The translations under genes were made by a program, and so were the position numbers. The notes beneath the pieces are model-generated. The model made no database searches and was not told the DNA's origin. It saw only the letters and a program-made list of their open reading frames with translations. A stretch of 64,000 nucleotides of DNA from Clostridia bacterium (GTDB lineage Bacteria > Bacillota > Clostridia > TANB77 > CAG-508): positions 186,001-250,000 of the forward strand of contig JAFSBT010000008.1 of NCBI GenBank assembly GCA_017437145.1, read 5' to 3'. This document shows, piece by piece, positions 3,476 to 3,889 of this stretch; the stretch's first letter is position 1; each line of letters opens with the position of its first letter.

Positions 3476-3645
3476 TGGAGCAGGTAGTGGGGCCCATCGC
3501 CCTCGCGTCGGAAAAGATGTCCACTGGACATCTTTTGCCTTCGTTTCGGCAGGCCCCAGTCCTGCTCGAAACTTGGCACCCTCCTTTTCGATTCCCACTC
3601 TTAAAAAAACTAAAAGAACCATAGCTTTGCTATGATTCTTTTTTA
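3476..3645 (-). repeat. tRNA-Gly-linked tandem unit, copy 1 (R5)
   Basis: This 170-bp unit begins with the same 16 bases (TGGAGCAGGTAGTGGG) that form the 3' end of the tRNA-Gly gene at 3816. It contains a perfect 11-bp palindrome with a 3-base loop at 3512-3536 and ends in a terminator-like hairpin (CATAGC/GCTATG). Short reading frames through it are by-products of the repetition. Confidence 0.85.
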
Positions 3646-3815
3646 TGGAGCAGGTAGTGGGTCCCATCGCCCTCGCGTCGGAAAAGATGTCCACTGGACA
3701 TCTTTTGCCTTCGTTTCGGCAGGCCCCAGACCTGCTCGAAACTTGGCACCCTCCTTTTCGATTCCCACTCTTAAAAAAACTAAAAGAACCATAGCTTTGC
3801 TATGATTCTTTTTTA
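3646..3815 (-). repeat. tRNA-Gly-linked tandem unit, copy 2 (R5)
   Basis: Second copy, offset by exactly 170 bases and differing by only a few bases from copy 1. It again begins with the tRNA 3'-end 16-mer and is followed immediately by the real tRNA-Gly. Read on the minus strand, the tRNA is followed by its terminator hairpin and then by the two tandem units. Confidence 0.85.
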
Positions 3816-3889
3816 TGGAGCAGGTAGTGGGAATCGAACCCACGTCATCAGCTTGGAAGGCTGAGGTTCTACCATTGAACTACACCTGC
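3816..3889 (-). tRNA. tRNA-Gly(UCC)
   Basis: Full cloverleaf on the minus strand: acceptor GCAGGTG/TACCTGC, D stem GTTC/GAAC, anticodon stem TCAGC/GCTGA around loop CTTCCAA (anticodon TCC), T stem GTGGG/CCCAC, discriminator T and encoded CCA. The anticodon loop has the normal seven bases. This tRNA reads GGA, the codon that would be decoded after six of the seven CGG frameshifts described in the findings. Confidence 0.95.

Follow-up and report, generated by a model that had tools for sequence, protein, structure and literature searches.

Why should the 3' end of one tRNA gene recur beside it at a fixed interval? The question is raised by the tRNA-Gly (anticodon TCC) locus in the window, i.e., the entire stretch of 64,000 nucleotides from a Clostridia bacterium analysed here. 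The sequence TGGAGCAGGTAGTGGG occurs in it at 3476, 3646, and 3816 with a spacing of exactly 170, and Tandem Repeats Finder reports a repeat of this period at 3464–3831 (98% matches, score 722). A complete tRNA is found by ARAGORN, on the minus strand, only at the last of the three sites. The original prediction, which had drawn attention to this arrangement, is borne out with regard to the spacing and the single full tRNA; its description of the units as exact repeats is accurate for the period but not for the units themselves, the first two of which differ at two positions.

Read in the sense of the tRNA from its CCA, each unit has the same order: a terminator-like hairpin, a segment termed P1a, a core, and a distal copy of the tRNA 3' end (CCCACTACCTGCTCCA). 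P1a (GTGGGAATCGAA) is the reverse complement of TTCGATTCCCAC, i.e., the T-loop and the 3' strand of the T-stem of tRNA-Gly. The core begins with AAGGAGGGTGCC and holds a P2/P2b hairpin and a P3 hairpin, the latter being the 11-bp palindrome (AAAAGATGTCC-ACT-GGACATCTTTT) that had been predicted, along with the terminator, for every unit and is indeed present in each. No gene lies inside the unit. The R1 covariance model, of which the window sequence forms a part, matches unit 1 at 3646–3772 with 127.1 bits (Table 1). An independent relative (G009) carries a comparable pair of 172-bp units behind the same tRNA, with 5–10 differences from the units of the window; hence, the array is neither a chance occurrence nor an artefact of a single assembly. 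Elsewhere in the window, Tandem Repeats Finder also reports an imperfect tandem duplication of 207 bp at 58996–59421 (83% matches).

Table 1. Features of the tRNA-Gly(TCC) locus and its array in window coordinates.
Feature	Position	Strand	Basis
tRNA-Gly, anticodon TCC, intact host gene	3816–3889	-	ARAGORN; Rfam RF00005, 73 bits
Unit 1, starting just past the tRNA CCA and ending with the following CCA	3646–3815	-	Sequence, tandem-repeat and unit alignment; R1 match
Unit 1 terminator hairpin AAAGAATCATAGCAAAGCTATGGTTCTTTTAGTTTTTTT, arrived with the insertion	3773–3812	-	Sequence; displaced original terminator in relatives
Unit 1 P1a GTGGGAATCGAA, reverse complement of tRNA T-loop and T-stem 3' strand	3757–3768	-	P1a/tRNA comparison
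Unit 1 P2b hairpin	3713–3742	-	Double changes in 9/11 pairs of the helix
Unit 1 P3 hairpin AAAAGATGTCC-AGT-GGACATCTTTT	3682–3706	-	Double changes in 7/11 pairs; 99.6% of cells paired
Unit 1 distal tRNA 3'-end copy CCCACTACCTGCTCCA	3646–3661	-	Sequence; P1b stem and acceptor match host tRNA 98% (46 elements)
Unit 2	3476–3645	-	2 differences from unit 1; R1 match, 126.4 bits
Unit 2 P1a	3587–3598	-	Sequence; P1a/tRNA comparison
Unit 2 P3 hairpin	3512–3536	-	Sequence
Unit 2 distal tRNA 3'-end copy	3476–3491	-	Sequence
Unit 3 remnant: terminator, P1a (GTGGGAATCGAA), first core bases, then truncated	1652–1723	-	Alignment to unit 1
Block between unit 2 and unit 3 remnant, ~1.74 kb, with 331-aa and 149-aa ORFs	1721–3463	.	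9-bp direct repeat at borders

A partial copy near 1650 had been taken as a sign that the unit can spread. The copy is real; it lacks a tRNA fragment, its region gives a weak R1 match (1596–1679), and it seems to be the distal end of this very array, split off by the 1.74-kb block. This block, with the 9-bp sequence GATTCTTTT repeated directly at its two borders (1712–1720 and 3464–3472) and with no Pfam match for either of its ORFs, resembles a separate insertion and looks like a later arrival in the array or a cargo. A second repeat (TGCGAC..GTCGCA and then a GTGAATAGTGAATA-type sequence) often starts exactly where the family elements stop—e.g., at 1596–1651 in the window and in the distal flanks of loci L002, L097, and L240—and is possibly another mobile element drawn to the same sites.

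That the units were inserted is seen from relatives with empty sites. In the sister species G004, which has no unit, the terminator directly follows tRNA-Gly, while in G009 the same terminator lies beyond the two units; removing exactly 344 bp (2 × 172) from G009 aligns the flanks straight through with those of G004. At the tRNA-Tyr of G009, the element is preceded by a new terminator and followed by a copy of the tRNA 3' end, beyond which stands the old terminator, the one usual in the genus, which in G008 and G011 directly follows tRNA-Tyr. Thus, a terminator arrives with the inserted piece and the previous one is displaced; terminators are not conserved among elements with similar cores. 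The inserted DNA starts with the base that follows one CCA and runs through the next one, with the distal copy corresponding to the last 16–21 nt of the tRNA; the host tRNA is left intact and its original terminator is moved to the far side. Terminators of a similar type also stand at tRNA-Gly in further members of the genus that lack the element, and the sharing of this distal-type terminator favours gain over precise loss.

A search of the genome for further copies had been proposed with the original prediction, and BLAST does reveal them: diverged versions stand behind tRNA-Gln(CTG), tRNA-Gln(TTG), and tRNA-Leu(CAA). Neither a copy number and position common to all relatives nor an absence of other copies, which had been named as the marks of an old local duplication, is what the genomes display. 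A pattern scan of the genomes of 84,980 species recovered cases behind Tyr, Gln, Phe, Leu, Lys, and Gly tRNAs, with nearly all the carriers being gut Clostridia MAGs; five matches in other bacteria were rejected as chance. The R1 model matches 56 of the 287 genomes of the order, covering 25 of its 45 genera, and 14 of 391 genomes in the remainder of the class, several of them weakly. A looser model (R2) found no true member outside Clostridia in 398 genomes from elsewhere in the phylum; two of its matches were rejected, that in G937 as lying within tmRNA and that in G440 as an isolated hairpin. The wide searches used stricter filters, such that these genome counts are lower bounds.

The accepted set comprises 46 elements behind 17 tRNA isoacceptors, and tmRNA is also used as a target (loci L234 and L276, from two distant families of Clostridia). 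Throughout, the order in the tRNA sense is the tRNA with its CCA, usually a terminator, P1a, the structured core, and the tRNA 3' end repeated through CCA. The subtypes range from approximately 84 to 138 nt, and while some are without P2b or P2, P3 and the ...GACGCGGCTYG end are kept. No Rfam 15 family matches the elements at its gathering score, the searched stretches giving only tRNA, tmRNA, 5S, and a THF riboswitch (weak matches to ylbH, AS-pc01, and permuted tmRNA fell far below gathering scores and were rejected); no description of such a family was found among open-access papers, and no copy matched in phage and plasmid collections. In viral contigs, a first pattern hit many loci, which were set aside as none scored with the covariance model.

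Other kinds of insertion were encountered at some of these loci. In the window's own genome, a different mini-element of 69 bp (L004, 1435–1503) lies behind tRNA-Gln(TTG) beside a decayed member of the family; it ends in a tRNA 3'-end copy (GAACCCCAGCCA) and has a GCGGGG/CCCC pairing. Behind a tRNA-Asn (L030, 210–450), there is a larger non-coding element with a displaced 3' part of tRNA-Asn from near the anticodon stem, and a family element follows it, such that two kinds are stacked on one tRNA. At L020 (reverse strand), the anticodon loop of tRNA-Tyr is interrupted by a stretch resembling a group I intron. L013, which starts at the anticodon of a tRNA-Leu, was considered as a retrocopy and rejected; it is better read as probably the 3' half of a tRNA, displaced when a larger integrative element split the gene.

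A minimal mobile unit was among the origins offered by the original prediction, and it gains support from the precise empty sites, the dispersed relatives at many tRNAs, and the gene-free interior. On balance, the units are probably two tandem copies of a non-autonomous mobile element that carries no gene, targets the 3' ends of genes for tRNA and tmRNA, and has ends adapted to the tRNA. Three aspects of this had not been recognised earlier, namely the tRNA-specific antisense P1a, the conserved structured core, and the reading of the copy near 1650 as part of the array.

The adaptation of the ends is seen upon comparing each element with its host tRNA. In a sample of 132 distinct tRNA 3' flanks, enriched by selection as many were fetched from loci chosen for holding elements, 45 have a P1a matching at 10–12 of 12 positions along with a distal copy for their own tRNA, as against 10 of 660 when another tRNA's sequence is used in the same test. 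Across the 46 elements, the loop part of P1a shows 97.5% identity to the intact host T-loop, whereas the loop preceding the distal copy agrees with it at only 56%; thus, P1a fits the intact tRNA and not the neighbouring copy. Since the universal TTCGA stretch of the loop would match anyway, the informative position is the variable one, which P1a matches in 45 of the 46 elements; likewise, P1a matches the TTCAA variant in each of the five tRNAs carrying it. For the distal stem and acceptor copy, agreement with the host tRNA is 98%. Within one genome, elements behind Ser and Pro tRNAs have cores that are about 91% identical, with each end fitting its own tRNA; cores as similar (91–92% identity over these cases) are found behind Tyr and Asn tRNAs, again with P1a and the distal copy each fitting the local tRNA. 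Thus, the ends change faster than the core, which might occur either by re-templating at insertion or by selection. Certain Tyr elements with a Gln-like P1a were not used as proof of P1a retargeting because single-base deletions can also account for them.

The core, for its part, evolves as a folded structure. Among 21 aligned elements, changes on both sides are seen in 22 of 32 pairs (P1 pairs in this count partly mirror the tRNA copy itself), a figure reached in none of 500 shuffles, and slid controls collapse. In the inner helices, G-U pairs outnumber A-C pairs by 18 to 3 in the first set and by 40 to 7 in a set of 53 distinct elements aligned to the model, which points to folding of the tRNA-sense strand and not of the opposite strand or both. 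So the tRNA-sense strand of the core folds, as RNA or as single-stranded DNA, two states that the G-U bias does not separate. A processed small RNA from the tRNA precursor, likewise among the origins first suggested, stays conjectural even though the folding strand is the one in the sense of the tRNA.

For the enzyme and the strand chemistry of insertion, we infer a mechanism in which the folded sense strand, be it single-stranded DNA or RNA, would be the moving or recognised form, and pairing of P1a with the T-loop/T-stem 3' sequence would rebuild or recognise the tRNA site. An enzyme provided in trans, most likely of the tyrosine-recombinase type acting at the T-arm, would then join the element there; such a recombinase might be transient, or it might be Xer itself acting on the folded strand. 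The tRNA-matching ends would be acquired or adapted at each new target, and the tandem copies would grow, homogenise, and decay through ordinary recombination between direct repeats. Chimeric tRNAs, which are expected from a plain attP/attB exchange into a new tRNA, were not seen; hence, simple exchange of this kind leaves the re-adaptation of both ends unexplained. Neither a circular form nor an event of transposition was observed. A stronger version holds that P1a is a true guide, with the RNA or single-stranded DNA of an approximately 120-nt re-adapting element pairing with the T-loop/T-stem of the tRNA gene to direct insertion and the 9–13-nt antisense segment being rewritten for each new tRNA; this we regard as a tentative possibility.

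Candidate enzymes were surveyed in 20 carriers and in as many genomes lacking R1 matches, with the caveat that these MAGs are incomplete. Tyrosine recombinases (PF00589) are present in all the surveyed genomes, though this profile survey found no element-specific integrase consistently present among the carriers; two element-bearing genomes (G225 and G640) have two PF00589 matches each, which is compatible with Xer alone. Y1 transposases are absent from 9 of the 20 carriers and reverse transcriptases (RVT_1) have no match in 10 of them, including the window's own genome; on this presence and absence, both were rejected as required enzymes. The latter result weighs on a SINE-like, RNA-mediated origin, wherein the element would ride on the tRNA transcript, be freed from CCA to CCA, be reverse transcribed, and be inserted at a tRNA 3' end with duplication of the region from T-loop to CCA. 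That the tRNA-sense strand is the folding strand, that the unit boundaries are mature tRNA 3' ends, and that the distal copy follows the target are all accommodated by such copying, but dispersed retrocopies away from tRNA ends were not found, and it appears unlikely.

Alternatively, the units might give rise to a functional RNA conserved as a tRNA trailer, which would pair with the T-arm in processing or quality control and be moved with, or adapted by selection to, each tRNA. Its patchiness between sister species, the remnants and truncations, and the usual location beyond a terminator sit poorly with such a role, which we hold to be quite unlikely despite its consonance with the close match of P1a to the T-loop, the strong covariation, and the sense-strand bias. 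Less probable still is a derivation from large integrative elements of the classical kind that deletion has reduced to att fragments: tRNA 3' ends are known as a class of integrase target, and the attL/attR-like layout there would suit such remnants, but core structure and sequence are conserved across families and no larger version was seen. Searches of viral contigs with three stricter patterns also speak against it, the right-end pattern giving seven unrelated G+C-rich matches in IMG/VR and the other two none. Purely local slippage or unequal crossing-over of the tRNA 3' flank, with no mobility, is highly improbable as the origin of the units, being contradicted by the related cores behind many tRNAs and genera and by the precise empty sites, but it is still likely as the source of their number.

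In the last respect, slippage duplication, also among the origins first suggested, retains a part. The two units of the window have one spacer in common and the two units of G009 another, which indicates that arrays homogenise locally and that recent duplication or conversion accounts for the exact period of 170 bp. About 30 of the 46 elements stop within 10 nt of the distal CCA, whereas the others run into partial or whole further units, and many arrays finish in truncated ones. The best reading is that the tandem number arises locally, atop an inserted mobile element.

Among known systems, genomic islands and satellites integrating at tRNA genes, wherein the attB of a tyrosine recombinase lies in the tRNA 3' end, are the closest parallel: in both, the tRNA 3' end marks the limit of the identity block, the tRNA remains intact, the downstream sequence is displaced, and tmRNA is used. 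The precise empty site with the tRNA 3' end as a direct-repeat identity block is likewise that of a tRNA-site tyrosine-recombinase element. However, known tRNA-targeting elements typically have their own integrase and one target, whereas these units, of about 100–200 bp, are without an integrase or any gene, have an antisense T-arm segment, and belong to one core family that uses 17 isoacceptors and tmRNA. The layout, then, works like that of a tRNA-site integrative element, while an integrase and a single target are wanting. Integron cassettes with their attC sites and the folded attP of the CTX type have single-strand-specific folded structures, short paired ends, and tandem arrays, all of which are paralleled here, including the strand-specificity of the fold; unlike these, the units have no gene, target the tRNA T-arm, have paired ends that change with the tRNA, and on inspection lack GTTRRRY/RYYYAAC core sites, their ends following the T-arm TTCGANT instead. 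They resemble MITEs and the palindromic elements derived from REP/IS200-IS605 in being short, non-coding, hairpin-bearing, and non-autonomous. However, fixed terminal inverted repeats appear to be absent, the ends match the target—being inverted repeats, but tRNA-dependent ones, with a 16–21-bp identity block that could be a duplication—and a Y1 transposase is dispensable. Like tRNA-derived SINEs, they are tied to a tRNA sequence and transcription unit, but they are located at tRNA 3' ends rather than dispersed, and half of the carriers are without reverse transcriptase.

One small core family occupies at least 17 isoacceptors and tmRNA, keeping each tRNA intact and matching its ends by an antisense T-arm segment, and the problem it poses is what enzyme mobilises such gene-free DNA. 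If P1a does direct insertion, this would be a minimal system for targeted insertion, whose targeting rule can be both read and tested, and such a guide-directed element would be categorically new. Even without a guiding P1a, the family explains a common repeat behind the tRNA genes of gut Clostridia and the displaced tRNA ends found there.
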